64,000 nucleotides of DNA from Streptomyces humicola. Its GTDB lineage: Bacteria > Actinomycetota > Actinomycetes > Streptomycetales > Streptomycetaceae. The position numbers and the translations under genes are program-made. This document shows, one piece after another, positions 4,185-33,477 of this stretch (position 1 is its first letter; the number at the start of each line of letters is the position of its first letter). The stretch covers positions 124,001-188,000 of the forward strand of contig NZ_JANFNG010000004.1 of assembly GCF_024436035.1 (NCBI RefSeq). Direction: 5' to 3'. The notes below the pieces were generated by a model that was given only the letters and a program-made list of their open reading frames with translations, was not told the origin of the DNA and ran no database searches.

Positions 4185-4562
4185 TCAGCCCTCGTCGATG
4201 CGATCGACGGTGACGGGGTCGCCGCCGCGCACGGTCCGCAGCACCTCGGGGTCGCCATCGAGCGCGCCGAGGATGTTGCAGGGGCTCGCCAGACGGCACT
4301 CGTCACCGCGGGAGATCGGCGTGGGCCCGTAGGGCAGGGCCAGGCTGTCGCCGTCCGTCCAGAACGCGACCGTCCCCGGCGCGACCACTTGCTGGGCGTC
4401 GGGCTCGCGGTCGGGGCTGATGGGGGTGGAGAAGTAGACCTCCTCACCCCAGGTGTTGGCCGAGGAGGCGATGGGGAGCGCCTCCCACAGGGCCTTGGAC
4501 GTCGGGGTCTCGGTCAGCGTGGCGGTGGCGTGCCCGGCCGGCCACAGGATGCGTATCCGCAC
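4185..4562 (-). CDS. Cyclophilin-like fold protein
   Basis: This 125-aa protein belongs to the small bacterial/archaeal cyclophilin-like beta-barrel family (the group containing Thermotoga TM1367). Hallmarks are an opening MRIRILWPAGHATATL, an ALPIASSANTWGEEVYFSTP block, and LPYGPTPISRGDECR before the C-terminus. Family members lack the cyclophilin catalytic residues and have no firm biochemical role. GTG 4562 is preceded by AAGGAGGAGC, an excellent ribosome site. It appears monocistronic. Confidence 0.85.
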   Translation of the reverse strand: MRIRILWPAGHATATLTETPTSKALWEALPIASSANTWGEEVYFSTPISPDREPDAQQVVAPGTVAFWTDGDSLALPYGPTPISRGDECRLASPCNILGALDGDPEVLRTVRGGDPVTVDRIDEG

Positions 4563-7148: not shown

Positions 7149-8171
7149 TCAGTCCACCGCCCGGTGCACTGCGGCGACGATGTCCTCGACCTGCGGCAGC
7201 GCCGCTTGCTCCATGTGATGGGCATACGGGATGGGCACTTCGGCGCTGCACACTCGTTCCACCGGCGCGTCGAGTTCGTAGAAGGCGTTCTCCATGATGC
7301 GGGCCGAGATCTCGGCAGCGAGGCTGCCGGTGCGCCAGGCCTCGTCGACGACGACCGCACGGTGGGTACGTGCCACGGTCGCGGTGATCGCATCCTGGTG
7401 GAGGGGGCGCAGCGTGCGCAGGTCGAGCACCTCGGCGGAGATCCCGGCCTCCGCCAACTGCTCTGCCGCGTCGAGTGCCTTGGGCAGGCAGCCTCCGTAT
7501 GTGATCAGCGAGATGTCGCGGCCCTCGCGTCGTACCGCGGCCGAGGTCAGGTCTGCCGGGCCCGCGTCCTCGGCGGACGGTCCCGAGAGGTTGTAGAGCG
7601 AGCCGTGCTCGAAGATGATGACCGGATCGGGGTCGGCCAGCGCGGGCGCCAGCATGTGGCGGGCGTCCTCGATCGTGGCAGGGGCGAGGACGCGGATGCC
7701 CGGGATATGGGCGTACCAGCCCTCCAGGCTGTGTGAGTGCTGGGCGGCGAGCTGGCGGCCCGCGCCCGTGGTCATCCGGATCACTAGAGGGACTGGGAGC
7801 TGGCCGCCGGACATGTGCAACAGCGTGGCGGCGTTATTGAGGATCTGGTCGAGCGCGAGCAGGCTGAAGTTGACCGTCATGATCTCGACGATCGGGCGCA
7901 TGCCAGCGAGCGCGGCGCCGATCCCCGCGCCGGTGAACGCCGACTCCGACAACGGCGTGTCACGGATCCGCTCCGGGCCGAACTCCTCCAGCATGCCCAG
8001 GCTGACGCCGAAGGCTCCCCCGTACCGGCCGACGTCCTCGCCCATGAGGAAGACCCGCTCGTCGGCGCGCATCGCCTCGCTCATCGCCTGCCGCATCGCC
8101 TCGCGGTACGTCGTCGTGGCAGTGGCGGAGGAGGCACGCGGTTTTTTCGCGGTCGTCGCTGTCGTGGTCAT
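7149..8171 (-). CDS. 2-oxoacid (pyruvate/acetoin-type) dehydrogenase E1 beta
   Basis: This 340-aa transketolase-like beta subunit pairs with E1alpha to bind thiamine diphosphate. It shows [37 protein letters not shown] (the family ED-GxxGG-F block) and, toward the C-terminus, [12 protein letters not shown] and [17 protein letters not shown] Thr/Lys-rich leader of about 20 residues precedes the domain. ATG 8171 overlaps the E1alpha stop (ATGA). The oxoacid cannot be read from sequence; the acetyl-CoA synthetase in the operon suggests pyruvate or acetoin chemistry. Confidence 0.92.
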
Positions 8172-12022: not shown

Positions 12023-12247
12023 ATGAAAGCTGAAGTCGGAGACCTGGTGATCGTCGAGAGCCCCACCACCGGCACACTGCGGCGCGAGGGCGAGATCGTG
12101 GGGCTTCACCACGCGGACGGGACACCGCCCTATGACGTGCGCTGGGCCGACACGGGGCGCGTCACCCTCGTCTACCCAGGTCCGGATGCCCACGTCCAGC
12201 ACATCGAACACATCTCGGGCACCCGCCAAGGAGACGGCTCCTCGTGA
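12023..12247 (+). CDS. DUF1918 domain protein
   Basis: This 74-aa actinobacterial protein matches the DUF1918 pattern: MKAEVGDLVIVESPTTG, then REGEIVGLHHADGTPPYDVR, WADTGRVTLVYPGPDAHV and a His-rich end. The fold is a small SH3-like barrel and its function is unknown. Members often sit beside universal stress proteins and CBS proteins. The ATG is preceded by GGAAGGGGCC. Confidence 0.88.
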   Translation: MKAEVGDLVIVESPTTGTLRREGEIVGLHHADGTPPYDVRWADTGRVTLVYPGPDAHVQHIEHISGTRQGDGSS

Positions 12248-13003: not shown

Positions 13004-13630
13004 TCACCGGTCAGGCGGAAGGCGCTCACGGGTGTGCGCTTCGGCGGCCCAGCGGCGGCGGACCGCGTCCTCGTGCTCGGTCTGCTCCAGGGCGAGTTCC
13101 GTGGCGGCGAGCTGTTCGGTGAGGCGGGGGATCCAGTGGCGGCGCAGTGCGCGGACCCGTCGGCGGGTGGCGAGGACTTCGGCGCCGATGATGCGGGTGG
13201 CGGCGCGGGCGGCGGCGTAGTCGGCGGCGGCGAGCAGCGCGTCGCGGTAGGCGGCCTCGGCGTGGAGCAGGGCGGTGTTGCCGGGAGCCGGTTCGGTGGG
13301 GGCGCGCACCGCCGGTGTGCAGGTGGCGCCAGAGGGGTGCCGCACGCCCATGGACGTCGCCCATTCGACGGTGACGTCCGCGGGCTCCACCACGCTCGCG
13401 GCCTCCAGGGCCTGCTCGCCTCCCAACAGCACCCCTCGCAGAAGCCAGGTTTCGGCGTCCCCGAGGCGTGTCTGCCAGTCGCGGCCTGCTGCCTCCTCGG
13501 CACGCAGGCGGCGTTCGTGCTCAGTACGCAGGATGCGTAGCTTCTGGTCGAGCAGATCGGCGCCGCGTGTCGCGACGTCGATGCTGTGGCGCAGACGCAG
13601 GCGCCCGGCGCGCCCGGGAGGGATGCTCAT
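13004..13630 (-). CDS. A/V-type ATPase subunit D (central stalk)
   Basis: This 208-aa protein should be the coiled-coil rotor axle of the A/V-ATPase. It opens with an RAGRLRLRHSIDVATRGADLLDQK-type helix, as in subunit D, contains RRRVRALRRHWIPRLTEQLA and ends in a long alpha-helical, charged tail. Its start overlaps the B-subunit stop by 4 bp. It is last in the nine-gene operon, the usual position of D after A and B in archaeal operons. Confidence 0.88.
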   Translation of the reverse strand: MSIPPGRAGRLRLRHSIDVATRGADLLDQKLRILRTEHERRLRAEEAAGRDWQTRLGDAETWLLRGVLLGGEQALEAASVVEPADVTVEWATSMGVRHPSGATCTPAVRAPTEPAPGNTALLHAEAAYRDALLAAADYAAARAATRIIGAEVLATRRRVRALRRHWIPRLTEQLAATELALEQTEHEDAVRRRWAAEAHTRERLPPDR

Positions 13631-15039
13631 CCGCCCGCCCCCTTCTCGTGGGCGTCGATCAGCGCGTCCGGGAGCATGGTGAGCTCACTGCGCTCCAGGG
13701 TGAGCAGCACCTGCCACCCGCGTTCCAGGGTGTCGTCCAACGTCCGTGTCTCTTCGGGTCGTTGGTCCATGAAGCGGTACAGGAAGGCGTCACCGAGCTC
13801 CAGATAGCGGCGGTCAGCCCGGCTCAGTGCCGCCTGGCCGACCAGCTCGGCGAGCTCACGCACCTGCCGTGCCCGGGCGAGGGCGGCGAGCAGCTGTGCG
13901 GCCACGTCGAGATGGTCATCGCGGGTGCGCCCCGGACCGGCGCCGAAACGCATCAGCCGGGAGAGCGAGGCCAGGGCGTCCACGGGCGGGTAGACACCGC
14001 GTGCGTGCACGTCGCGGGAGAGTACGATCTGGCCTTCGGTGATGTAGCCGGTCAGGTCGGGGACGGGGTGGGTGATGTCGCCCGCGGGCATGGTGAGCAC
14101 CGGCACCACGGTGACCGAGCCCGGCCGCCCATCGATGCGTCCGCACCGCTCGTAGAGGGAGGCCAGGTCGCTGTAGAGGTAGCCGGGGTAGGCGCGACGG
14201 GCCGGGATCTCGCCACGGGCCGCGGAGACTTCGCGCAGCGCCTCGGCGTAGGTGGTCATGTCGGTCATGACGACGAGGACGTGCCTGCCGGCGTCAAAGG
14301 CGAGGTGTTCGGCGACGGTGAGCGCCAGACGTGGTGTCAGGATCCGTTCGATCACGGGGTCGTCGGCGGTGTTGAGCAGCAGAACCAGTTCGCTGGCAGC
14401 GGACCGTTCCTCCAGGGCGTCGCGGACGAAGGAGGCATCGGCGTGGGTGAGGCCCATGCCGGCGAAGACAACGCTGAACGCCTGACCCGCGGCGGTGGAC
14501 TGGGCCGCGATCTGGGTGGCGAGCTCCAGGTGGGGCAGCCCCGCGACGGAGAAGACCGGCAGCTTCTGGCCGCGCACCAGCGTGGTGAGCGCGTCGACGG
14601 CGCCGACTCCGGTGAGGACCGGATCGGCGGGCGGCTGTCTGCGCGCGGGGTTGATCGGCACACCGCCGACAGCCGCACTCGTGGCCCCGAAGACGGGAGG
14701 CCCGCCGTCGACCGGCTCGCCGCGCCCGTTGCAGACCCGGCCCAGCCAGCCCGTCCCGACGGGGATGCGCAACGGTGTACCCGCGAAGGCCATCCGCACG
14801 CCTGCCGGGTCCATGCCCGCGGTGTCCTCCAGCACCTGCACGACAGCGAGGTCGCGATTGACTTCGAGGACCAGGCCGTGCCGCTGTTCACCGGAGTGGA
14901 GGGTGATGCGTACGAACTCGTCCCAGCCGACCCCGGTCACGCCCTCGACGACGGCGAGCGGGCCGCGCAGTTCGCGTACCGCCGTGTACTCGACCTCACT
15001 CCACGCCATCCCGGACGTCCATGTCGTCCCCGTCGTCAC
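13627..15039 (-). CDS. A/V-type ATPase subunit B (non-catalytic)
   Basis: This 470-aa regulatory nucleotide-binding subunit forms the hexameric head with subunit A. Features: YTAVRELRGPLAVVEGVTGV at the N-terminus, GRVCNGRGEPVDGGPP, a degenerate P-loop region (FSVAGLPHLELATQIA) without GxxxxGKT, and MTDMTTYAEALREVSAARGE, matching B subunits of Thermus and Enterococcus. Lack of a Walker A lysine distinguishes B from A. It overlaps both neighbours by 4 bp. Confidence 0.92.
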   Translation of the reverse strand: MTTGTTWTSGMAWSEVEYTAVRELRGPLAVVEGVTGVGWDEFVRITLHSGEQRHGLVLEVNRDLAVVQVLEDTAGMDPAGVRMAFAGTPLRIPVGTGWLGRVCNGRGEPVDGGPPVFGATSAAVGGVPINPARRQPPADPVLTGVGAVDALTTLVRGQKLPVFSVAGLPHLELATQIAAQSTAAGQAFSVVFAGMGLTHADASFVRDALEERSAASELVLLLNTADDPVIERILTPRLALTVAEHLAFDAGRHVLVVMTDMTTYAEALREVSAARGEIPARRAYPGYLYSDLASLYERCGRIDGRPGSVTVVPVLTMPAGDITHPVPDLTGYITEGQIVLSRDVHARGVYPPVDALASLSRLMRFGAGPGRTRDDHLDVAAQLLAALARARQVRELAELVGQAALSRADRRYLELGDAFLYRFMDQRPEETRTLDDTLERGWQVLLTLERSELTMLPDALIDAHEKGAGG

Positions 15040-16769
15040 GACAGCTCCCCCAGCCGGGCGAGCACCGCGTCCCGCCGCGCCGCAACGCCCGCGGCGTCGT
15101 GCGGACCGCTCTCCTCGCGGGCGCGCAGCAGCGGCGTGAAATCGGCCTCCTCGACGGTGGCTGCGGGCACACCGGAGTCGACCAGACGGCGGCAGCGGTC
15201 CACCACGTCCAGTACGGCCTCGGCGAGCGCCGTGGTCTTCTCAGGACCGCAGAAGGCGTCCCGCTCCGACAATGCGCTCTGCTGCAGCAGGCCCTCGCGG
15301 ATCAGCCGGCCGCCGAGAACGCCGATCCGTTCGCGGTCGGGGAGTGCGGTGATGCCGACCAGGTCCACAAGGTCGGCGAGCCGGTCCGCCTCCGCCAGCA
15401 GCGCCGCCGTCCTGGTGCGCCGCCGGACCCAGTCCGGGTCGCCGGCCTGCGCGTGGCCCGCGCCGACTGCATCGGTGTCGCGTGAGAAGGAGCCTGACCA
15501 CGAGATCGCGGGGTAGTGACGGGCGTAGGCGAGGTCCCGGTCGAGCGTCCACAGACAGCGCACGAAGCGTTCGGTGTGCGCGGTGACGGGCTCGGTCATG
15601 TCCCCGCCCGGCGGGGAGACCGCGCCGATCACGGTCACCGAGCCCCGGGCGCCGCCGAGCGTCGTCACCGCCGCCGCCCGCTCGTAGAAAGCGGCGATCG
15701 CCGACGCGAGGCCCGCCGGATAGCCCTCCTCGGCGGGCAACTCACCGGTACGGGAGGCGAATTCGCGCAGCGCCTCGGCCCACCGGGAGGTGGAGTCGGC
15801 GATGGCCACGACGTCGAGTCCCATGTCGCGGAAGTACTCGGCCACCGTGGCGCCGGTGTAGATGCTCGCCTCCCGGGCCATCATCGGCATGTTGGAGGTG
15901 TTGGCGATGGTGACCGTACGGTCGGCGAGCCGGCCCCCGGTCCTCGGGTCCTCCAGCGCGGACAACTCCGCGATGACGTCGGCCATTTCGTTGCCGCGTT
16001 CGCCGCAGCCGATGTAGACGATGACGTCGGCGTCGCACCACTTGGCGATCTGTTGCAGCAGTACGGTCTTGCCGGTGCCGAAGCCGCCGGGAACGGCGAC
16101 GGTGCTGCCCCGGGCGACGGGGAAGAGCAGATCGATCGCGCGCTGGCCGGTGTTCAGGGCCTCGCGCGCCTCGACGCGCTCCAGGACCGGGCGGGGCGTG
16201 CGGATCGGCCAGTCGCACACCATCCTCACCTCGGCGTCCGCCACGACGGCCACCACGGCGCCGCTTGGGTAGCTCCCTTCGGGCGCGATCCGCTCCACCG
16301 GCCCGGAGCGGCCCGGCGGTACGAGGATCCGTACCGGCACCGGGCCTGCCGTACGCACCTCGCCGAGTACGGCGCCTTGCGTCACCTGCTGCCCTTCGGT
16401 GACGCGGGGCGTGAACGTCCATGTGCGACCACGGTCCTGTGGGCGGTTCGCGCCCGGGACCAGCCACTCTCCGGCGGCGGAGAGCGGACGCAGTAGGCCG
16501 TCGAAGATCCCGCCGAGCAGTCCGGGCCCGAGCCGGGCCGACAGCGGGGCGCCCCGCGGACGGGCGCGGTGCCCGGGGGCCAGGCCGCCGGTGTACTCGT
16601 ACGCCTGGACGGTGACCACGTCGCCGCTGATCGCCACCACCTCCCCGGGCAGCGCGGCGTCGCCGAGCGAGACCAGGTCGTACATGGCGGTACCGCCGGT
16701 GTACTCCATCTCGATCAGCGGTCCGGCAACCCGCAGGATGCGGCAGGGCTCACCCTTCACGGGGTTCAC
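15036..16769 (-). CDS. A/V-type ATPase catalytic subunit A
   Basis: This 577-aa catalytic subunit hydrolyses or makes ATP. The Walker A segment is VPGGFGTGKTVLLQQIAKW, with GGFGTGKT in place of the usual GPFGSGKT. YIGCGERGNEM holds the catalytic glutamate, and ADSTSRWAEALREFASRTGE follows. The A-specific non-homologous insert lies at about residues 110-190 (GGIFDGLLRPL, FTPRVTEGQQV). GTG 16769 gives a GTGA overlap with the E stop, like other junctions in this operon; GTG 16778 or ATG 16796 would add a few residues. Confidence 0.92.
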   Translation of the reverse strand: MNPVKGEPCRILRVAGPLIEMEYTGGTAMYDLVSLGDAALPGEVVAISGDVVTVQAYEYTGGLAPGHRARPRGAPLSARLGPGLLGGIFDGLLRPLSAAGEWLVPGANRPQDRGRTWTFTPRVTEGQQVTQGAVLGEVRTAGPVPVRILVPPGRSGPVERIAPEGSYPSGAVVAVVADAEVRMVCDWPIRTPRPVLERVEAREALNTGQRAIDLLFPVARGSTVAVPGGFGTGKTVLLQQIAKWCDADVIVYIGCGERGNEMADVIAELSALEDPRTGGRLADRTVTIANTSNMPMMAREASIYTGATVAEYFRDMGLDVVAIADSTSRWAEALREFASRTGELPAEEGYPAGLASAIAAFYERAAAVTTLGGARGSVTVIGAVSPPGGDMTEPVTAHTERFVRCLWTLDRDLAYARHYPAISWSGSFSRDTDAVGAGHAQAGDPDWVRRRTRTAALLAEADRLADLVDLVGITALPDRERIGVLGGRLIREGLLQQSALSERDAFCGPEKTTALAEAVLDVVDRCRRLVDSGVPAATVEEADFTPLLRAREESGPHDAAGVAARRDAVLARLGELS

Positions 16770-17284
16770 AGTGCCCACAGCGCCTCCGCGTCGCATCGTT
16801 CCAGTCCACGGGTGGCCAGGGCGTCCAGGGTGAGATCGACGCGACGGCCGGGAGCTACGGCTACCACTCCCCCGCCGGGGTGCTCCTCGACGGACGCGTC
16901 CGGGCCGAGGAGCCGTCGGGCGCGCGCGGCGAGCCGGTCGCGGATGGCGGGATACTCCTCAGCGTGCCGCAACTCCCTCACACCTTCGGTGACCTGGCGG
17001 CGCAGCTCGGCGTAGACCTCGCTGCGCGCGGCGAGTTGGCGAGCCCTGGCAGCACGGTGGGCGTGCATGCGCAGCTGCCTCGCCGCAGCCGCGCCGTCGG
17101 CCTCGCCCTGGCGGCGGGCCTCGTCGAGGATTGCCTGTGCCTCGGCGCGGACGGCGTCGAGGGTCTGGGCTGCGTCGGCGCGGGCTTGCGCCAACAGCGC
17201 ATCGGCGTCCGTCCGCGCGGCGCGCAGCAGTGCGGTGCGAACCGGCGCGAGTGCGTCGGCCTGTCCGGCCTGCGGCGTGGTCAT
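16766..17284 (-). CDS. A/V-type ATPase subunit E (peripheral stalk)
   Basis: This 172-aa protein is a long Ala/Arg/Glu-rich coiled coil (about residues 15-100) followed by a small C-terminal domain (GVVAVAPGRRVDLTLDALAT), the architecture of subunit E, which with H forms the stator stalks. ATG 17284 overlaps the F stop (ATGA). The frame is open upstream, but those residues are not E-like. The C-terminal motif resembles the GG-h-hh-s-GRI-hDNT region of E, in degenerate form. Confidence 0.8.
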   Translation of the reverse strand: MTTPQAGQADALAPVRTALLRAARTDADALLAQARADAAQTLDAVRAEAQAILDEARRQGEADGAAAARQLRMHAHRAARARQLAARSEVYAELRRQVTEGVRELRHAEEYPAIRDRLAARARRLLGPDASVEEHPGGGVVAVAPGRRVDLTLDALATRGLERCDAEALWAL

Positions 17285-17502
17285 GGCGGCATCACCGCCG
17301 TGAGCGGGCGGGTGGACTCGACGATGCCAGGGCCGAGGGCGTCGGCCGCGGCAGGGGTGACGATGACCAAGGTGACCTCGTCGGACAAGGCGCGCCATGC
17401 TTCGCGTACGGCGTGCGGGTCCTCGGCCACCAGCACGGTCACCCCGGCCAGGGCGAGACCGGTCACCCTGACCTGCTCCCCGATCGCCGCCGCCGAACCC
17501 AT
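17281..17502 (-). CDS. A/V-type ATPase subunit F
   Basis: This 73-aa protein is shorter than typical F (about 100 aa). It keeps the CheY-like core: an AAIGEQVRVTGLALAGVTVL opening, with the G-x-x-x-x-x-G-x-x-L-AG pattern of F, and EVTLVIVTPAAADAL. F caps the rotor and regulates coupling. It lies between K and E as in related operons, and its stop overlaps E by 4 bp. Confidence 0.72.
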   Translation of the reverse strand: MGSAAAIGEQVRVTGLALAGVTVLVAEDPHAVREAWRALSDEVTLVIVTPAAADALGPGIVESTRPLTAVMPP

Positions 17503-17504
17503 GG

Positions 17505-19370
<1,866 letters not shown>

Positions 19371-19384
<14 letters not shown>

Positions 19385-20303
19385 CAAACGCCTCCAGCGG
19401 CTGCCCGCCGCGTGCGGCCAGCTCCAGAGCGGCCCGCACCCGCCACGCGTCGGCCGACATCACCGCGATGGCCCCGATGACCGCGGAGGCATCGAAGCGG
19501 GAGCCCCTCAGCAGGTCGAAGCCATCCTGCTCGAGCCGCGTCCACCAACGTGTTTCGGCCCGCCACAGGTTGCGCGCGTCGTCGACACCGTCCATCACCC
19601 ATCGCGCCACGCGCGGCAGGCGCTGGCGGAACTCCGCGAAGGACGGGGCGCCGACGGCCCCAGCGCCGAGGATGCGGGCGGCGCGCCGAGCGGTCGGCGA
19701 TGTCATGGGGCGGTCAGCCAGATACCTCTCGCGGGCGACGAGCAAAGCGGCACGGCCCGAGGCCCAGCCCTCCGCCCACGGCACAGCGGCGGCAGTGCGC
19801 TCGGCAGCCGCGATCCGCATCCCGGTGGCCACCGCGGCGGGGGAGTCGCCTCCCGGGTCGCCCCAGGCCGAGGCAGCCAGCACGGCTCGCACGTCGGCCG
19901 GTGTTCCCGTCCTGGCCAGCCGAGGCCAGGCCGTCGCCAAAGCTCCGAGCCGGTAGGGCTCCGGCGCTGCCCCCGCCGGATCTTCCAGCGACCGCAGATG
20001 GCTTTCGACGTTGGCAATCTCGAACCCGGCGGCAAGGAGCCGCACCGCGCTCACGCCGGCTCGCGGCTGCCAGCCCGCGAGCACCCGCAGATGCCACAGC
20101 AGGGCCGCCGCGACCACCCGCTGCGCCTCGGCAAGGGTGGCCTCCGTCGCCAGGTGGCGCCGGTAAGGACCCGCGGCCAGGTAGCGCACCGCCTCGCCGA
20201 GCGTCACGGCCGCCGCCACCTCCCGGGCGCCGGAAGCGCCCACGCACCGGGAGGAGTGCATGGCCCGCGCCCGCGTCACGCCGGCCACCCATCCCGCGCC
20301 CAC
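19371..20303 (-). CDS. A/V-type ATPase subunit C/d
   Basis: This 310-aa mostly helical protein should be the funnel connecting the c ring to the central stalk. It has repeated three-helix segments with conserved LRVLAGWQPRAGVSAVRLL, FEIANVESHLRSL and, near the C-terminus, MSADAWRVRAALELAARGG. Similarity to archaeal/Thermus C is weak but position and length fit. GTG 20303 follows the H stop directly (TGAGTG). Confidence 0.75.
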
Positions 20304-20735
20304 TCAAGCTCCCCCCTCGCCGAGTCCTTGGACTATGTCCGCCACCACCCGCTCGACGAGTTCGGGCATCCGTTCCCTGGCCCGGCGGCACAGCTGGTCG
20401 GCTTCGCGTTCCCCGAAGGCGAGGAGCTCGGCTGCCTCGGCCTCGGCAGCGTCGCGCACCCGGGCCACGGCATCCCCCCTGACCTGCGCGGCACGCTCCC
20501 TTGCCTGTGCCAGGATCTGCGCGGCCTGCCGGTCCGCGGTATGCCGGATGCGTTCGGCGTCCTGTGCTGCCGCGTCCCGTATCGACCGGGCCTGCGACTC
20601 GGCGTCGTCCAGCAGCGACAGGGACGGCTGGAGTTCGGCGGCGATCTCGGCCGAGCGGTCCGCGGGCACACCGGTGGCCGCCCCGGGGGTGCCGGCCGGG
20701 CGGAACCGCATCAGGAAATCCCGGAACCCCGCCAT
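20304..20735 (-). CDS. A/V-type ATPase subunit H/G (peripheral stalk coiled coil)
   Basis: This 143-aa protein is dominated by an Ala/Glu/Arg/Gln coiled coil (about residues 45-125; AEIAAELQPSLSLLDDAESQ, ILAQARERAAQVRGDAVARV), as in the H/G subunits that pair with E. It is the first gene of the ATPase operon. ATG 20735 has GGAGGAGGG five bases upstream and is preferred to the longer open frame. A DevR-like palindrome lies 96-109 bp upstream. Confidence 0.75.
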   Translation of the reverse strand: MAGFRDFLMRFRPAGTPGAATGVPADRSAEIAAELQPSLSLLDDAESQARSIRDAAAQDAERIRHTADRQAAQILAQARERAAQVRGDAVARVRDAAEAEAAELLAFGEREADQLCRRARERMPELVERVVADIVQGLGEGGA

Positions 20736-22712: not shown

Positions 22713-23612
22713 ATGGAAACGTCAGCCGAGCACGCGGCTGTGGTCGTCGGCGTGGACTTCACGCCGACCGCAGAAGGGGCTCTCGGGGCGCTGGCCTGGG
22801 CCGCGGATGAGGCCGCGCTCCGGCATCTGCCGCTCCACATGGTCCACGCCATCGAGGAACCCCCTCACGGGTACCGCACAGCCGAGCTGGACAGACTCTG
22901 GTCGCCGTGGCACGCGGCGGTGCGCACCGCCTGTGTCCGGGAACTCGAGGCCCTGCGTCACTCGGTGCTGCGCCGACACCCAGATCTTGTGGTGGTGGCT
23001 GAGCGCGCCGATGGACGGCCGGCCGAGGTGCTGGCCAAGCGGGCACACGGCGCCACGATGGTGGTCGTCGGCTCCCGGCAGCTGGGCACGGCGCGGGATG
23101 TGTTCACCCGCGGCGCGGTGGGGATGCCCCTGATGGCGCAGGCCTCGTGCCCGGTGGTCGTGGTCAGGGGAAGCGAGCGCGCCGCGCGCGGACCGTCCCA
23201 TCTGGTCGTGGTGGGGGTCGATGGCTCCGAGGTCTCGAGGCCGGCAGTGGAGTTCGCCTTCGAGGAAGCCGCCTTCCGCGACGCCCACCTGCTGGCCCTG
23301 GCGGCGTGGCGACCGGCCTACCGAGACACGGAACCCGATGCCGACACCGAGCAGGAGTGGCGGCGAGTGCTGGCGGAGGCCACCGCGGGCTGGCAGGAGA
23401 AGTACCCCGAGGTGCACGTGCGGCATGAGCTGGTACGCGGGCATCCCGTGCACGTGCTCAGCGAGGCGGGCGCCGATGCGATCGCCCTGGTGGTGGGCAC
23501 CCGCGGGATGGGAGGGTTCCCCGGACTGCTGCTCGGCTCGGTCAGCCAAGGCGTCATGCACCACGCCCAATGCCCGGTCGTCGTCGTACCGCACAGGTCT
23601 GTACAGGCATGA
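22713..23612 (+). CDS. Tandem universal stress protein (UspA family)
   Basis: This 299-aa protein has two UspA domains: about 8-150 (AVVVGVDFTPTAEGALGALA to VVVVRGS) and about 158-295 (LVVVGVDGSEVSRPAVEFAF). The second ends with the ATP-binding motif GTRGMGGFPGLLLGSVSQ. The first has the looser GSRQLGTARDVFTRGAVG. Actinobacterial tandem USPs bind ATP and are induced by hypoxia and starvation. The ATG follows AGGAGGTGAAAAGCGC. Confidence 0.93.
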   Translation: METSAEHAAVVVGVDFTPTAEGALGALAWAADEAALRHLPLHMVHAIEEPPHGYRTAELDRLWSPWHAAVRTACVRELEALRHSVLRRHPDLVVVAERADGRPAEVLAKRAHGATMVVVGSRQLGTARDVFTRGAVGMPLMAQASCPVVVVRGSERAARGPSHLVVVGVDGSEVSRPAVEFAFEEAAFRDAHLLALAAWRPAYRDTEPDADTEQEWRRVLAEATAGWQEKYPEVHVRHELVRGHPVHVLSEAGADAIALVVGTRGMGGFPGLLLGSVSQGVMHHAQCPVVVVPHRSVQA

Positions 23613-24196: not shown

Positions 24197-24652
24197 TCAG
24201 CGGGCATGGGTGATGGTGACGCCCGTGGGGTGGGAGGCGGGTTCGGCCAGCTTGCCCAGCCGCATGTGGAGGCTGGCCTGATCGAGCTCGGGCACCTGGC
24301 GTGTGAAGGTGTCCTGTCCGACAGTGGTGCATTCCCAGGCGTTGGTCTCGGCTGCCACCATGGTGAGCAGCCAGGTGGCGTAGATCCGCTCGTTGCTCCC
24401 GTCGTCGAGGTACAGGCCGTTCCAACTGGTGACGGACTCGGCGTCGCTGCGGTCGTTGTGCCAGGCCACCGTCCAGCCCAGGACGGTGCCGTAGCCGGGT
24501 CGTGTGGTCGTTTCGTAGCGCCCCACCAGGGCGTACGGGCCGGCCGAGTGCCCCGTGGCCGAGACGTAGGTCCCGGTGACGCCCCCGAACGGGTCCGTGG
24601 TGAGCCGCATGTGGGAGCCGAGCTCGTTGTACCAGTCGCCGGCGACGACCAT
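24197..24652 (-). CDS. Streptavidin/avidin-family biotin-binding protein without signal peptide
   Basis: This 151-aa protein aligns along the whole streptavidin beta-barrel: GDWYNELGS (residues 5-13), GVTGTYVSATG, LVGRYETTT, VLGWTVAWHND, NGLYLDD, IYATWLLTM, NAWECTTVGQDTFTR. Biotin contacts of streptavidin are kept: N9, L11, S13, Y29, S31, W64, S73, T75, W77, W94, L96, W106 and D114 (N23, L25, S27, Y43, S45, W79, S88, T90, W92, W108, L110, W120, D128). The 3-4 loop differs (V47 is T, A50 is S). ATG 24652 has GGAG seven bases upstream and there is no secretion signal, so it should be cytoplasmic, unlike secreted streptavidin. It follows the broken HPF gene. Confidence 0.9.
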   Translation of the reverse strand: MVVAGDWYNELGSHMRLTTDPFGGVTGTYVSATGHSAGPYALVGRYETTTRPGYGTVLGWTVAWHNDRSDAESVTSWNGLYLDDGSNERIYATWLLTMVAAETNAWECTTVGQDTFTRQVPELDQASLHMRLGKLAEPASHPTGVTITHAR

Positions 24653-25115
24653 CTTCCCTCTCCTTCCTTCGGCACTAGTCGGCGGTGTGATCAGGCCGTA
24701 GTGCCCGTCGTAGCGGTGGAAGTCGGGGCGGTGCGCGGGTTCACTGCCACGGCACCACTCGTGCGCGGCCGCCTGCGGCATGCCGCTCGCCGGGCCGCCC
24801 AGCCCCGGCTCAGCCGCGCAAGCCGGTGCTCCAGTCGGTCACACAGCAGGTTGACTGCCTCCGGCACCGACCCTGCAGCCACGCGCGCCCGCGCCGAGCG
24901 GCCGTTGACATCCACAGCGGCCTGAGCCATCGCCGACCGCCGCACTGCCGGGTCCCGCCCCTGGGCCAGTCTCGTCCTTGCGAACAGCACGAGCCCATCG
25001 GCCCGGCGACAACGTCCAGCACCTTGGTCCGCACGGCCTCCACCAACTCCGGCGGGACGTCGCCTTGAACCCTCACCTGGACCTGAGGAACCTGCTTGGT
25101 GGCCGAGCGGTTCAT
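24653..25115 (-). pseudogene. Long-form ribosome hibernation factor (HPF/RaiA-like), frameshifted and internally deleted
   Basis: ATG 25115 (after GGGAGGACGGC) starts MNRSATKQVPQVQVRVQGDV and PPELVEAVRTKVLDVVAG. A frame change near 25000 leads to LVLFARTRLAQGRDPAVRRS, AQAAVDVNGRSARARVAAG and CDRLEHRLARLSRGWAARR. A second change near 24780 leads to HEWCRGSEPAHRPDF, joined directly to HRYDGHYGLITPPTS. The last motif resembles the extreme C-terminus of long actinobacterial HPFs, so the dimerisation domain between is deleted. The final frame runs without a stop into the avidin gene. Confidence 0.65.
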
Positions 25116-25216
25116 GCCGTCCTCCCACATCTCCGGCACTGCGCGATCCCCGCCGCTGTGTGCGTCCTCAGGCCCTGTCATCTCCACGCTCACGCGCGGG
25201 CGGCTCAGCGGTGGAG

Positions 25217-25230
25217 GGGCCGAAGGTCCC
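25217..25230. promoter_or_regulatory. DevR/DosR-like palindrome, HPF-avidin / P-ATPase divergent region
   Basis: GGGCCGAAGGTCCC lies 102-115 bp upstream of the HPF start (minus) and about 190 bp upstream of the P-type ATPase (plus). The divergent intergenic region is otherwise featureless. Confidence 0.6.
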
Positions 25231-25417
25231 CGCTCGGGGGAATGCGGTCCAGTCCTCAACGAGGGCGCCATCAACGCCGTACGAGACAACCGCACCCGGA
25301 TTGTCCTCCCCGTCGCTTGTGCGCGGTGCAGGCCTCACCACCCCTTTGGACCGCGCGTCGCGGCGTCCTCGTCTGCGTGGGCTTAGCGTGGATCCGTAGA
25401 TCACGATGGGGTGAGCG

Positions 25418-28183
25418 ATGTCCGAGGGGAGCAAGGAGACGGCGACGCGGGTCCAGACCTTCATGGAGCCGACCCCGGAGGAGCCACCGGATCTGCTGCT
25501 GCGTCATCTGCACGCCTCACGCCACGGACTGTCGACACGGGAGGCCGCACGGCGGCTCGTCCAGTACGGGCCGAATGAACTGCGAAGGCGCGGTGGGCGC
25601 CAATGGCCCCAGGAACTGGCGCGGCAGGTGACGCATCCCCTCGCCATGCTGCTGTGGGTCGCGGCAGCGCTGTCCTTCGCCGTTGGCAGCCAAACGGTCG
25701 CCATCGCCGTACTGCTGGTGATCCTGCTCAACGCGCTGTTCGCCTTCGTACAGGAAATGGAGGCCGAACGAGCCGTCGAGACGCTGGCTCAGTATCTGCC
25801 CCAACACGCCACAGTGCTGCGCGACGGCGAACCTGCCCTCATCGAGGCCACCGCGCTCGTCCCGGGTGACATCGTCGTGCTCGAAGAGGGAGACCGCATC
25901 GCGGCCGACATCCGGCTGCTGTCCGGTGCCGTCGACGTGGACATGTCGACGCTCACCGGTGAGTCGGTGCCGGTGCTGCGCTCAGCGGAGCTGACCGACC
26001 TCGCGGCCCACCGCCTGGATGCTCCGGATCTCGTCTTCAGCGGCAGCAACTGCACCGGCGGCGAAGCCCAAGGCGTTGTGTTCGCCACGGGCATGCACAC
26101 CCAGCTGGGACGGATCGCCGCCCTGTCCGAACGCGTGAAAGAACGGCCGAGCCCACTGGAGGCGCAGGTCCGTCGCGTCGCGTGGCTGATCGCCTGCATC
26201 GCCATCGGCATGGCGATCGCCTTCGTCCCCGTGGCCATGTTCGGCGCCGGCCTGTCGATCAGAAACAGCGTCGTCTTCGCCGTCGGCCTGCTCGCCGGCA
26301 ATGTCCCCGAGGGACTGCTACCTGTCATCACCCTCGCTCTGGCGGTAGCAGTGAGCGCACTGGCCCGCAGGGGAGCGCTGGTCAAACGCCTCAGCGCCGT
26401 GGAAACGTTGGGATCGACCGACGTCATCTGCACCGACAAGACGGGGACGCTCACCGAGAACCGCATGCGCCCCATGACCGCCTGGACCAGCAGCGCGGTG
26501 GTCGACCTCGGCCCGAATGCGCACGTTCGGGAGCCGGACGCCTCGATTACCGCTCTGACGGAGTGTGCGGTGGCCTGTACCAACGCGTTCCTTGAATCCG
26601 GCGAACCGGGGGACGGCGGTCCTGCGGAGCGAGCCGTCGGTGATCCCACCGAGATCGCGCTACTCTTCGCCGCCCGTCTGCTCGGCGCGGACGTCGACCC
26701 GACCGCCCGGGAGCGACGGCGGCGCCACCAGTACGAGTTCGATCCCACGCGAAAGCTGATGTCCACCCTGGACGCCGACACGGCCTGCGACTGGCTGCAC
26801 ACCAAGGGCGCCCCGGAATCTGTCCTGCCACGCTGCGACGGCGTCCTGACGCCGGACGGCGAACGGATCGCGCTCAGCGAGGCTGAGCGGGCCCGCATCA
26901 CTTCGCAGGTCGAGCAGTTCGCCGGCCATGGACTGCGGGTGCTCGCACTTGCCCGCCGCGCCCTGCCACCAGGCCAGGAGCCGCCCGCCCGCGACGACGC
27001 CGAGCGCGAACTGTGCTTCCTCGGCCTGGTCACCCTGCTCGACCCGCCGCGCCCGGACGCAGCCGAGGCCGTCGCCCGCTGCCACTCTGCAGGCATCCGC
27101 ATCATCGTCATCACCGGCGACCACCCCCTCACCTCGGCGGCCATCGCCCGCCAGGTCGGCGTCGGCGGCGAGGACCCCACGGTGATCAACGCACAAGCCC
27201 TCGGCCACCTGCACGAGAAACAGCTCGACGCATTCCTGGCCGACGGCCGCGAGATCGTCTTCGCCCGCTCCTCCCCCGAGGCGAAGCTGCACATCGCCGA
27301 GGCACTGCGCGCCGAGGGGCACGTCGTCGCCATGACCGGGGACGGTGTCAACGATGCCCCCGCTCTGCGCAGCGCCGACATCGGGATCGCGATGGGCCGC
27401 TCGGGCACCGATGTCGCGCGGGAGGCGGCGACCATGGTGCTCACCGACGACAGCTTCGCCACCATCGTCGCCGCGATCGAGGCGGGCCGTCAGGTCTACG
27501 ACAACGTCCGCAAGTTCATCATCTACATCTTCGCCCACGCCACCCCCGAGGTCGTGCCGTTCCTGGTCTTCGCGCTCGCCGGAGGCGCGGTCCCGCTGCC
27601 GCTGACCGTGCTGCAACTGCTCGCCTTCGACGTCGGCACCGAGACGCTGCCCTCACTGGCTCTCGGCCGGGAGCCGACCGAATCCGGCACCATGGAGCAG
27701 TCGCCACGTCCGCACAACGAACCCGTCATCCGCGCGCCCATGCTGGTGCGCGCATGGCTGTTCCTCGGGCTGATCGTCGCGGCGCTGCAGATGGGCGGCT
27801 TCTTCTACGTCCTGACCCGGGCCGGCTGGCACCCCGGCGCTCCCACGGGCCCCGGCGCCCCTCTGCACCACGCCTACCTGCAGGCCACCACCATGAGCTT
27901 CCTCGGCATGATCGCCGGCCAGATCGGCACCGCCTTCGCCGTGCGCACCCAGCGCGCCTCCCTCCGCTCGATCGGCGTCTTCAGCAACCCGTATCTGCTG
28001 GCCGCCATCGCCGCCGAACTCGTTCTCGCCGCCTTCTTCGTCTACGCCCCGCCCATGCAAGCGCTCCTCGGAACATCCGCTCTGCCCGCCCACGATCTGG
28101 CGCTCCTCCTGCCGTACCCGGTCACCGTGTGGGGCGCCGACGAACTTCACCGCTGGCTGCGCCGCCGCACAGCAGTCCACTGA
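25418..28183 (+). CDS. P-type cation-transporting ATPase (P2 type)
   Basis: This 921-aa membrane pump has an N-terminal cation-ATPase domain (LHASRHGLSTREAARRLVQY) and TGES in the actuator domain. GNVPEGLLPVITLALAVAVS is in TM4, DKTGTLTENRM carries phosphorylated Asp340, and KGAPE, MTGDGVNDAPALRSADIGIA and a six-helix C-terminal cation domain follow. VPEGLL resembles Na/K- and Ca-type P2 pumps; the transported ion is not certain. It is a single gene; the CBS protein follows after 150 bp. Confidence 0.93.
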   Translation: MSEGSKETATRVQTFMEPTPEEPPDLLLRHLHASRHGLSTREAARRLVQYGPNELRRRGGRQWPQELARQVTHPLAMLLWVAAALSFAVGSQTVAIAVLLVILLNALFAFVQEMEAERAVETLAQYLPQHATVLRDGEPALIEATALVPGDIVVLEEGDRIAADIRLLSGAVDVDMSTLTGESVPVLRSAELTDLAAHRLDAPDLVFSGSNCTGGEAQGVVFATGMHTQLGRIAALSERVKERPSPLEAQVRRVAWLIACIAIGMAIAFVPVAMFGAGLSIRNSVVFAVGLLAGNVPEGLLPVITLALAVAVSALARRGALVKRLSAVETLGSTDVICTDKTGTLTENRMRPMTAWTSSAVVDLGPNAHVREPDASITALTECAVACTNAFLESGEPGDGGPAERAVGDPTEIALLFAARLLGADVDPTARERRRRHQYEFDPTRKLMSTLDADTACDWLHTKGAPESVLPRCDGVLTPDGERIALSEAERARITSQVEQFAGHGLRVLALARRALPPGQEPPARDDAERELCFLGLVTLLDPPRPDAAEAVARCHSAGIRIIVITGDHPLTSAAIARQVGVGGEDPTVINAQALGHLHEKQLDAFLADGREIVFARSSPEAKLHIAEALRAEGHVVAMTGDGVNDAPALRSADIGIAMGRSGTDVAREAATMVLTDDSFATIVAAIEAGRQVYDNVRKFIIYIFAHATPEVVPFLVFALAGGAVPLPLTVLQLLAFDVGTETLPSLALGREPTESGTMEQSPRPHNEPVIRAPMLVRAWLFLGLIVAALQMGGFFYVLTRAGWHPGAPTGPGAPLHHAYLQATTMSFLGMIAGQIGTAFAVRTQRASLRSIGVFSNPYLLAAIAAELVLAAFFVYAPPMQALLGTSALPAHDLALLLPYPVTVWGADELHRWLRRRTAVH

Positions 28184-28332: not shown

Positions 28333-29019
28333 ATGCCGCACAGCCCGCACATCGTCTCCGACGTCATGACGCACACCGTCGTCGCCGTGGGCCGCAGCGC
28401 CTCGTTCAAGGAGATCGTCCGGACGATGGAGCAGTGGAAGGTCAGCGCCCTGCCCGTGCTCGCAGGCGAGGGCCGTGTCATCGGCGTCGTCTCCGAGGCC
28501 GACCTGCTGCCGAAGGAGGAGTTCCGCGACAGCGACCCCTCCCGCATCGAACAGCTGAGCCGCCTCGCCGACCTCGCCAAGGCCGGGGCGACCACCGCCG
28601 AGGAGCTGATGTCCACCCCTGCGCTCACCGTGCACGCGGACGCCACCCTCGCCCAGGCCGCGCGCATCATGGCCCACGGCCGCGTCAAGCGGCTGCCGGT
28701 GATCGACGCCGAGGGGCACCTGGCGGGCGTCGTCAGCCGCAGCGACCTGCTGAAGGTCTTCCTCCGCACCGACCAGGACATCGGGGACGAGGTGCGCCGC
28801 GACGTGATCGGGCTGCTCTTCCCGAACGCCTCGCCACCCGTGGAGGTGACGGTGGACGAGGGTGCGGTCACCCTGCGCGGCCTTATCCCGGACGCCTCGC
28901 TCATCCCCATCGCCGCCCGGCTCACCCGCGCCGTGGAAGGCGTCGTCGACGTCGAATGCCGGCTCACCGCCACACGGCGACAACGCTTCGAGCCCCCGGT
29001 CGCCGGGCCGCGATCCTGA
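28333..29019 (+). CDS. CBS-pair and BON domain protein
   Basis: This 228-aa protein has CBS1 (VSDVMTHTVVAVGRSASFKE to VIGVVSEADLLPKEE), CBS2 (AEELMSTPALTVHADATLAQ to GRVKRLPVIDAEGHLAGVVS) and BON (VEVTVDEGAVTLRGLIPDA). It is probably an adenylate-sensing regulator of energy metabolism; target unknown. ATG 28333 lies six bases after TGAGATGAGG and matches the starts of paralogues; ATG 28321 is the alternative. It is a paralogue of the proteins at 38761 and 40245. Confidence 0.88.
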   Translation: MPHSPHIVSDVMTHTVVAVGRSASFKEIVRTMEQWKVSALPVLAGEGRVIGVVSEADLLPKEEFRDSDPSRIEQLSRLADLAKAGATTAEELMSTPALTVHADATLAQAARIMAHGRVKRLPVIDAEGHLAGVVSRSDLLKVFLRTDQDIGDEVRRDVIGLLFPNASPPVEVTVDEGAVTLRGLIPDASLIPIAARLTRAVEGVVDVECRLTATRRQRFEPPVAGPRS

Positions 29020-31905: not shown

Positions 31906-32763
31906 TCAGTCGTGTGGGACGACGGCGACCGGGCACGGTGCGTGGTGTATCACCGCGTGTGCGACGGGGCCCAAACGGGTGCCCATCGGTCGCTGCGTGC
32001 GGCGCCCGACGACCAGCAGTCTGGCGTCTGAAGCGGCCTGCACGAGGTGCTGCGCCGGACGTTCGAAGACAACCTGGTCGTGCACGGTGACATCGGGATG
32101 TTTCTTGTGCAACGGCCGCAGCACTGTCGCGAGCGCTTCCCGTTCCTCGACCCTGAAGTCGATGCCATCCGGTATGTAGCCGTAGCTCGGCGGGGAGTGC
32201 CAGGCGTAGACGGCGCGCAGCGGCGCCTTGTGCACGGCGGCGAAGTCGAACGCGAATTCGATCACGGCCTCACAGGGGTGGCCGAGATCAGCTCCGACGA
32301 GCACCTCACGCGGTGTGCCGGACGCCTCCCCTGTCCCAGGCTCGTCCACGGCGCGGACGAGGACGACGGGCCGTTCCGCCTTCGCGACGACGGCCAGTCC
32401 CACGGAACCTGCGAAGAATCCGGCGACGGTGCCAAGGCCTCGGGATCCGAGCGCGAGAAGCTCGGACTCCTTCGCGACGTCGAGTAGCGCCGGGTCCGGC
32501 AGGTTCTCGATGGTCTCCACCGTGATCTGCAGGTCCGGTTGGCGGGATGCGATGTCCTTCGCTGTCTGGTCCATCATGCGGTCGGGCCAGTGTTGTTCCC
32601 CTGCCGGCTCGGACGGTGTCGGCGGCAGGTGCTTGGGCAGCCACTCCCAGGCGTAGACCAGCTTCAGCGGCAGACCCCGCATCTGTGCCTCACCGGCCGC
32701 CCAGTGGGCGGCGGCGACGCTCTCGGGAGAGCCGTTCAGGCCGGCGGTGACGGGACGGACCAT
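31906..32763 (-). CDS. Tandem universal stress protein (UspA family)
   Basis: This 285-aa protein has two UspA domains (about 5-140 and 155-283). The first contains LALGSRGLGTVAGFFAGSVG, close to the ATP-binding consensus; the second has LLVVGRRTQRPMGTRLGPVA and ends CPVAVVPHD. ATG 32763 has GGAGG nine bases upstream and is preferred over an earlier in-frame start. The gene is divergent from the cyclic-nucleotide-binding gene, with three DevR-like palindromes between. Confidence 0.92.
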   Translation of the reverse strand: MVRPVTAGLNGSPESVAAAHWAAGEAQMRGLPLKLVYAWEWLPKHLPPTPSEPAGEQHWPDRMMDQTAKDIASRQPDLQITVETIENLPDPALLDVAKESELLALGSRGLGTVAGFFAGSVGLAVVAKAERPVVLVRAVDEPGTGEASGTPREVLVGADLGHPCEAVIEFAFDFAAVHKAPLRAVYAWHSPPSYGYIPDGIDFRVEEREALATVLRPLHKKHPDVTVHDQVVFERPAQHLVQAASDARLLVVGRRTQRPMGTRLGPVAHAVIHHAPCPVAVVPHD

Positions 32764-32839
32764 CAGTACCCACCTCCAGGTCATACAGCGTGAGCACCCA
32801 TTCCGTTAAGGCTGGCGTGTCCGGTGCCGCGCGGAGCAG

Positions 32840-32928
32840 GGGCCATACGTCCCCGCACCGGGCCGACCGGCCCCACCCGCCACCATGGCCCGGGTAGGCC
32901 CCGCCCTGCCCCATTGGACCCTTGGCCG
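32840..32928. promoter_or_regulatory. Cluster of three DevR/DosR-like palindromes in a divergent promoter
   Basis: GGGCCATACGTCCC (32840-32853) and GGGCCGACCGGCCC (32860-32873) lie 77-110 bp upstream of the USP start. TGGACCCTTGGCCG (32915-32928) lies 73-86 bp upstream of the cyclic-nucleotide-binding gene. The first two centres are 20 bp apart, two helical turns, as in paired DevR sites. Confidence 0.65.
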
Positions 32929-33000: not shown

Positions 33001-33477
33001 ATGACCGGGTCCGGCACCACCCTTGGCAGCGGTCTGTTCCGCGCCATTCCGGCCGACAAGCACAAGGCGCTCATGGGGCTGAGCCGTGAGGTGGGCTTTG
33101 CCCGCGGCGTCCGCATTTTCGAAGAGGGCGCCAGGGCGGACCGCTTCTGGGTCCTGCGTTCCGGCCGGGCCGCGCTCGACCTGCACGTACCAGGGCGCCG
33201 CGCCGCCGACGTCGAGGTGCTCGAGGCGGGGGACCTGCTTGGCTGGTCCTGGCTGTTCCCGCCGTACGTGTGGCACCTGGGTGCGCGGGCGCTGACCGAG
33301 GTGGCCGCCGACGAATTCGACGCCGAGGCGGTGCGTGCCCTGTGCGCGAAGGATCCGGAGCTCGGACAGGCGGTGACGCTCGCTGTCGGGGCCGTCATCG
33401 GCCACCGCCTGATGGCCGCCCGCACCCGGCTGCTGGACCTGTACGCGCCGTACGGCAGCGGCCCGCCGCGCGGGTGA
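33001..33477 (+). CDS. Cyclic-nucleotide-binding domain protein without HTH
   Basis: This 158-aa CRP-type effector domain has RAIPADKHKALMGLSREVGF, FEEGARADRFWVLRSGRAAL, VEVLEAGDLLGWSWLFPPYV and a C-terminal helix. The PBC core seen in classical CRP (GELAL....PRAA) is altered and there is no DNA-binding HTH. It may sense a nucleotide or redox state and act on a partner protein. The ATG follows GAGGAGGCGC. PPK2 follows after 7 bp, so the pair is probably co-transcribed. Confidence 0.82.
   Translation: MTGSGTTLGSGLFRAIPADKHKALMGLSREVGFARGVRIFEEGARADRFWVLRSGRAALDLHVPGRRAADVEVLEAGDLLGWSWLFPPYVWHLGARALTEVAADEFDAEAVRALCAKDPELGQAVTLAVGAVIGHRLMAARTRLLDLYAPYGSGPPRG

Follow-up and report, generated by a model that had tools for sequence, protein, structure and literature searches.

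A leaderless streptavidin homologue among stress genes in Streptomyces humicola, with suggested low-oxygen control

Introduction

Among the closest known relatives of the gene studied here are the streptavidin genes, which, according to the accessible part of PMC13111796, adjoin the acidomycin and stravidin clusters; the same source reports synergy between streptavidin and stravidin. For bacterial avidins more broadly, the available portion of Laitinen et al. (2021; PMC8033661) describes gene neighbours carrying mobile-element and defence terms and proposes outward roles for the proteins. Of the putative bacterial avidins it surveyed, only about 50% are predicted to carry a signal peptide, so leaderless bacterial avidins were already implicit in 2021. 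This contradicts the first-pass annotation of our locus, which had described the known avidins as secreted. As late as 2026, the biological role of avidins was still called poorly understood in the accessible text of PMC13425791.

A second system that bears on the locus is the OsdR/DevR dormancy regulon. In the part of PMC5069765 available to us, OsdR (SCO0204) of Streptomyces coelicolor is presented as a DevR orthologue that recognises AGGGCCGATCGGCCCT-type sites, and Table 1 gives the sites before SCO0167 and narG2 as AGGGACCTTCGGCCCC. The main text of that paper contains none of the terms "avidin", "hibernation" and "ribosome", while the main text of PMC8033661 contains none of "hypoxi", "ribosom" and "Kitasatospora", and both of its uses of "stress" refer to animals. 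Among the matches listed in the open-access literature, as far as their accessible portions go, none links avidins to dormancy or to the ribosome hibernation factor (HPF), which is weak evidence of absence.

Here we describe an avidin gene of Streptomyces humicola within a 64-kb stretch of one contig, C44:124001-188000 (the window, meaning the whole stretch analysed), together with its relatives, its neighbours and its upstream sequences.

Results and Discussion

An avidin gene without an export leader

The minus-strand open reading frame at 24197..24652, which begins with the ATG at 24652 and whose stop codon ends at 24197, encodes a leaderless streptavidin homologue of 151 aa. In a Pfam profile search the protein matched PF01382 (Avidin) with an E value of 8.4e-25 and 87.8 bits (cut-off 24). 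A sequence search found 177 PDB sequences at E <=0.001, and the best 60 of these 177 are streptavidins or variants of them, covering residues 3-123 or slightly less. The profile match, together with the predicted fold, confirms a genuine avidin gene at this position. A plus-strand reading of 24197-24652 was rejected, as the codon-bias caller retained the minus-strand frame alone and the Pfam support belongs to that frame. A Shine-Dalgarno sequence, AAGGAG (24660..24665, minus strand), lies 8-13 bases 5' of the avidin ATG, in agreement with the clear ribosome site described in the first-pass annotation.

Export potential was scored as the greatest 11-residue mean hydropathy within the N-terminal 40 aa, which is a hydropathy test and not SignalP. 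The window avidin reaches 0.75, compared to 2.30-3.19 in four secreted avidins; read from their own starts, 28 leaderless rows range from 0.14 to 1.38. We also considered whether an upstream start could add a signal peptide, and this was ruled out. The in-frame upstream extension (24653..24781, minus strand, 43 aa, ATG at 24781) encodes the last part of an HPF C-terminal domain (...FHRYDGHYGLITP...), is similar at the DNA level to a segment on contig C19 that matches PF16321, and has a hydropathy maximum of just 0.04 with no hydrophobic segment. Since this extension is the hydrophilic tail of an HPF gene, no start at the window avidin yields a signal peptide. The longer in-frame extensions of relatives reach 1.75 (L025) and 1.73 (L076), below the 2.30 of the weakest secreted avidin. 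The absence of an export leader from the window avidin, as originally claimed, is well supported by these values.

Fold and biotin pocket

A structure model of the 151-aa protein, built with 20 sequences and of middling confidence (mean pLDDT 76.7), has eight strands arranged in an antiparallel barrel, the first strand starting at residue 5. Structure comparison gave Z 17.7 over 118 residues for tamavidin 2 (37% identity), in a tie with streptavidin at Z 17.3 (about 45% identity over the barrel). Of 20 streptavidin ligand-shell positions, which we take to be the biotin-contact set, 16 are identical in the window avidin and four differ (V47>T33, N49>H35, A50>S36 and L124>T110). The ureido, sulphur and ring contacts of biotin are retained, and lid loop 3-4 is altered. 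The intersubunit Trp120 of streptavidin corresponds to W106, which at most hints at a tetramer. Biotin binding by the window avidin is predicted from these features. They also bear out the initial description of a protein that keeps essentially all the streptavidin contact residues and has a changed 3-4 loop (T33, H35, S36), and the superposition on streptavidin proposed with that description returned the expected barrel.

The same pattern extends to the leaderless relatives described below. In an alignment of 27 leaderless proteins, S27, G48, W79, W92 and W108 are invariant (27/27), S88, T90 and W120 are retained in 26 and D128 in 25. The change at position N49 is lineage-wide, with H in 15 proteins, R in six, P in five, Q in one and N in none (0/27), and N23 is replaced by S in 8/27. 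From this conservation, the leaderless lineage has retained most of the pocket with an altered lid. Positions 47, 49 and 50 of the lid, and position 25, vary within the group, as might be expected if the barrel bound another ligand (a biotin precursor or other metabolite); however, the contact residues kept in 25 to 27 of the 27 proteins argue against this, and we consider it very unlikely. The lineage-wide replacement of N49, with N23>S in 8/27, suggests a pocket that may release biotin faster than streptavidin does.

A leaderless avidin lineage

PF01382 was present in 9 of 120 relatives and in 18 of 394 family genomes; among 396 genomes from across the phylum, the one genome with a match was that of S. 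humicola itself. A pattern scan of named genomes located 23 avidin loci in Streptomyces, Kitasatospora, Streptacidiphilus, Amycolatopsis and Dactylosporangium. Of 31 aligned avidins, 27 are leaderless and four have a clear hydrophobic leader. These four come from Amycolatopsis, Dactylosporangium and, in two cases, a genome with a true streptavidin (G348). In the tree, the four secreted proteins form one side of a 100/100 branch and the 27 leaderless proteins lie on the other. L046 and L079 were left out of the 31-protein alignment because they appear frameshifted, and L046 was included in the neighbour counts. With a paralogue in its own genome and membership of this lineage, the window avidin is not a lone oddity.

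Several further avidin genes were observed. The apparently frameshifted leaderless genes lie at 8001-8359 of L046 and 9240-9649 of L079. In two Kitasatospora-type genomes, a small protein (MDE-FF-AG--YR...) is encoded next to a leaderless avidin of a second, shorter type (L042 8410-8736, L044 7302-7757). Distant avidin-like proteins, apparently leaderless, are encoded in another family of the same order (L021 9089-9457, L023 5622-5990). Relatives on plasmids amount to 39 records (37 from Rhizobium and two from Streptomyces), all below 60% identity. A phage origin was considered and rejected, with no phage match and no relative in viral contigs.

HPF-avidin units

The 7.07-Mb genome carries two avidin genes, the window copy and a leaderless paralogue on contig C19 (L013 8537-8992) with 85% protein identity. 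Both frames are open, and dN/dS between them is 0.27; as paralogues, the two copies count once as evidence. Each lies 3' of a broken HPF gene in the same orientation. Compared with the C19 copy, the HPF remnant in the window (24691..25115, minus strand) has lost about 350 bp and shows single-base gaps, and it is not among the matches of the PF16321 genome scan. The C19 HPF gene is broken into two frames and has an in-frame TGA. The aligned HPF codons of the two copies give a dN/dS of 0.35, so the HPF breaks look recent and do not establish that only avidin is under selection.

On C19, the HPF C-terminal segment and the avidin gene overlap in a common ATGA stop/start, and in the window an open 194-aa frame runs from the HPF C-terminal end through avidin. 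We considered a working HPF-avidin fusion and rejected it, as the HPF frames are broken in both copies; the shared ATGA and the 194-aa frame are taken as an operon relic. The genes next after the C19 avidin encode HSP20 and DUF2267 proteins, with a divergent FtsH gene (named by eye) and a GAF-GAF-histidine kinase gene about 3.4 kb off. HPF also adjoins avidin in S. meridianus, where an intact HPF gene and the avidin gene diverge from an OsdR/DevR-type box, and lies about 2.4 kb from avidin in L038.

One reading of this association is that avidin binds to acyl-CoA carboxylases and pyruvate carboxylase through their biotinyl-lysine and keeps them inactive in dormancy, as a metabolic counterpart of HPF parking ribosomes. 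Besides the proximity of HPF at these four loci, two points of general biochemistry count in its favour: most of the biotin in a cell is attached to protein, and the changed lid position N49 touches biotin at its carboxylate end, where biotinyl-lysine has an amide. On the other hand, acceptance of protein-bound biotin by this pocket is purely hypothetical here, and the broken state of both HPF genes beside the S. humicola avidins means that the two need not be paired. We regard carboxylase inhibition as unlikely.

Stress-gene neighbourhoods

The first-pass annotation placed the avidin gene inside a stress island, and Pfam matches agree. A tandem universal stress protein (USP) gene lies at 22713..23612 (plus strand, PF00582), a second USP gene at 31906..32763 (minus strand; Usp matches at 155915-156763 of the contig, C44), a gene for a cNMP-binding (CRP-like) domain protein at 33001..33477 (plus strand, PF00027) and a DUF1918 gene at 12023..12247. 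Genes for a P-type cation ATPase (25418..28183, plus strand), transcribed away from the intergenic region that precedes the HPF-avidin unit, and a CBS-domain protein (28333..29019, plus strand) were named by eye, as was HSP20 in the window.

To compare neighbourhoods, we used stress markers drawn from the S. humicola genome only (USP, HSP20, CBS, DUF2267 and HPF, the last being the C19 HPF segment) and searched about 8 kb either side of each avidin gene. Markers were found at 10 of 11 Streptomyces leaderless loci, compared to 2 of 40 windows of 16.5 kb taken at random from two genomes. The corresponding counts were 1/14 for Kitasatospora-type leaderless loci, 0/4 for secreted avidin loci and 0/1 for the Streptacidiphilus locus. 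Fisher tests on the Streptomyces loci gave p values, which ignore relatedness, of 5.4e-8 against random windows, 3.5e-5 against Kitasatospora-type loci and 0.0037 against secreted loci. After addition of five loci searched over their whole 19 kb (L067, L069, L070, L075 and L079), markers lay within about 8-9 kb at 11 of 12 Streptomyces and 2 of 18 Kitasatospora-type loci.

It should be noted that "Kitasatospora-type" denotes genus group g14, in which L027 and L042 come from Streptomyces sp. NRRL B-24484; with these two counted as Streptomyces, the tallies become 11/14 and 2/16. Group g9, the source of L067 and of random windows, is Streptomyces by inference. L071, L072 and L074 duplicate L033, L040 and L035; weak or partial matches in G238 and G165, and L021-L023, were left uncounted; and L028, L041 and L046 are shorter than 16 kb. 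With a wider marker set, some of whose markers were drawn from the tested loci, the Streptomyces exception L037 has RtcB only and Streptacidiphilus L032 has a CBS match.

The recurrent location of Streptomyces leaderless avidins in stress islands is well supported by these gene counts. Island loci occupy several places in the tree (three changes), but no more than one origin is required by the branches with strong support. It is possible that such islands are simply changeable neighbourhoods in which avidin hitch-hikes, so that location says nothing about function or control. The Kitasatospora-type relatives found elsewhere (2/18 near stress genes), the decaying HPF neighbour and the recurrence of USP- and CBS-bearing regions on several contigs of the S. 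humicola genome are all consistent with hitch-hiking. However, neighbouring genes differ among island loci and yet stress genes recur, and the OsdR/DevR-type box described below is conserved. Overall, we judge hitch-hiking fairly unlikely.

The gene locations also bear on whether these avidins are weapons that stay inside until the cell dies and then deprive competitors or grazers of biotin, the role proposed for secreted avidins. Such defence on lysis would fit the patchy distribution (18/394 family genomes) and, in the accessible part of PMC13111796, the streptavidin-stravidin synergy and the position of streptavidin genes near the acidomycin cluster. Against this, stress genes surround the leaderless genes of Streptomyces but not the four secreted ones, and a dormancy-type box would be unexpected for a weapon. 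We hold this explanation to be distinctly unlikely.

Separately, further regions with USP and CBS-like genes and OsdR-like boxes, including some genes that resemble those of the window, were seen at L129 (contig C2), L130-L131 (C19) and L132-L133 (C36). The window itself also contains an apparent A/V-type ATPase-like operon (13004-20735, minus strand, by eye), unexpected in an actinomycete, with A- and B-like subunits at 15036-16778 and 13627-15009 (minus strand, by eye), and a gene for a cyclophilin-like protein at 4185-4562 (PF04126, E 1.4e-33).

OsdR/DevR-type boxes

An OsdR/DevR-type box, GGGGACCTTCGGCCCC (25216..25231, read on the minus strand; 13.2 bits), precedes the HPF start by about 100 bp and the avidin start by about 560 bp. 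It differs by one base from the SCO0167 and narG2 sites, AGGGACCTTCGGCCCC; the scoring matrix was built from 25 sites of PMC5069765, including one near-identical to this box. When the 257-bp region was shuffled 2000 times, a fraction of 0.0015 of the shuffles reached the score of this box, against a background in which 7% of 544 genes at the compared loci reach 13.2 bits (the score of the L028 and window boxes) within 350 bp upstream. The 14-mer GGGACCTTCGGCCC occurs twice in the 7.07-Mb genome, both times before HPF-avidin units, and on C19 HPF is preceded by a further box, which scores 18.2 bits. In an alignment of the sequences 5' of the three units (window, C19 and S. meridianus), the longest invariant run (16 columns) coincided with the box.

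Across the 64-kb window, six boxes score at least 12.5 bits, a threshold set after a first scan at 9.5 bits; shuffled sequences had a mean of 0.98 and a largest count of 5 (100 shuffles). All six are intergenic, the intergenic share of the window being 0.235. Two OsdR-like boxes (32839..32874) lie between the second USP gene and the divergent cNMP-binding gene. At 9.5 bits, boxes were no more frequent in the window than in the other loci compared (0.156 vs 0.185 per kb). The mycobacterial DevR 20-mer had no match in the 64-kb window, a 14-base box pattern with one mismatch occurred there 20 times (24.95 expected, i.e. chance), and a looser pattern occurred 71 times in the whole genome, below the 92 of its reversed control. 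Given these null pattern scans, the regulatory claim rests on the 12.5-bit count with its intergenic placement, the exact 14-mer and conservation.

Immediate upstream regions of avidin genes gave a mixed picture. The best scores within 350 bp of the two S. humicola avidin starts are 5.3 and 5.0, short of the 12.5 bits taken as a box, and L028 is the only one of 11 Streptomyces loci whose upstream region reaches that threshold. L025 and L030 have a common site of 11.2 bits, and upstream alignment revealed a weaker half-site common to L024, L025 and L030. Scores in the L036-L046 group do not exceed 6.9 bits, and no OsdR-type site was seen by eye in their upstream alignment. Upstream of the 14 Kitasatospora-type leaderless genes scanned, no site reaches 12.5 bits. 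Streptacidiphilus L032 has a near-consensus OsdR box, GGGGCCGATCGGCCCT, at 7892-7907, 109 bp before avidin, and its score of 20.6 bits exceeds all 2000 of 2000 shuffles.

A response regulator gene at C2:47042 is osdR-like by eye, its product being 77% identical to one encoded in Kitasatospora L031. It has USP genes on both sides and boxes in the flanking gaps, with none directly before it. Low-oxygen control of the HPF-avidin unit is suggested by these observations. The first-pass annotation had called the avidin "probably hypoxia-controlled". This claim is strengthened to some degree by a box before the HPF-avidin unit that is invariant in three loci and by an osdR-like gene in the genome; on the other side, neither S. 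humicola avidin start has a box within 350 bp, and most other leaderless loci are without a strong one.

A possible role in resting cells

Our preferred reading, tentative and held at a little below even confidence, is that the window avidin is a cytosolic streptavidin of a low-oxygen or dormancy response that sequesters or stores biotin. Low oxygen would activate OsdR, a DevR-type regulator, which would induce the HPF-avidin unit. The genome contains bioB, so the cell probably makes biotin, and avidin would capture and hold free cytosolic biotin in a biotin-making cell that had stopped growing. The held biotin would be less available for charging carboxylases, and the avidin-bound pool could serve as a protected store for regrowth. 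The faster release suggested by the N49 and N23 changes fits storage, as a store would need it. Among the points against the preferred reading, a tight cytosolic biotin binder could be toxic to the cell, and the Kitasatospora-type genes are mostly outside stress islands (2/18). Sequence alone cannot choose between a store of free biotin and a brake on carboxylases.

A broader and more speculative proposal, which we think improbable, is that the cytoplasmic avidin lineage constitutes a biotin-based dormancy switch. A low-oxygen regulator would induce avidin together with HPF, and avidin would clamp carboxylases by their biotinyl domains, or else clamp the free biotin with which they are charged. 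Lipid and anaplerotic metabolism would then be shut in parallel with ribosome hibernation, with release on regrowth.

While the function of the avidin remains at the level of hypothesis, the observation itself is right. A leaderless lineage found in stress islands, with a conserved low-oxygen-type box at some loci, points to an intracellular avidin role, and it may be that some avidins work within resting bacteria and are not secreted weapons. Furthermore, the lineage may supply avidins that fold in the cytoplasm and have a naturally altered lid loop.

Comparison with known systems

Tamavidin 2, an avidin from a mushroom, is made without a leader. The model of the window avidin resembles it over the 118 residues behind the Z score of 17.7, with the aligned barrel starting at chain residue 6; it differs in that tamavidin 2 is fungal and shares only 37% identity. 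Streptavidin of Streptomyces avidinii resembles the window avidin in its barrel (about 45% identity), in 16/20 ligand-shell residues and in Trp120, while the window avidin differs in having no signal peptide and in the lid changes N49>H, V47>T and A50>S. The two also differ in genomic setting, streptavidin genes lying near acidomycin and stravidin clusters according to the available part of PMC13111796 and the window avidin in a stress island. The locus resembles the OsdR/DevR dormancy regulon of PMC5069765 in its type of box, and it has USP genes nearby.
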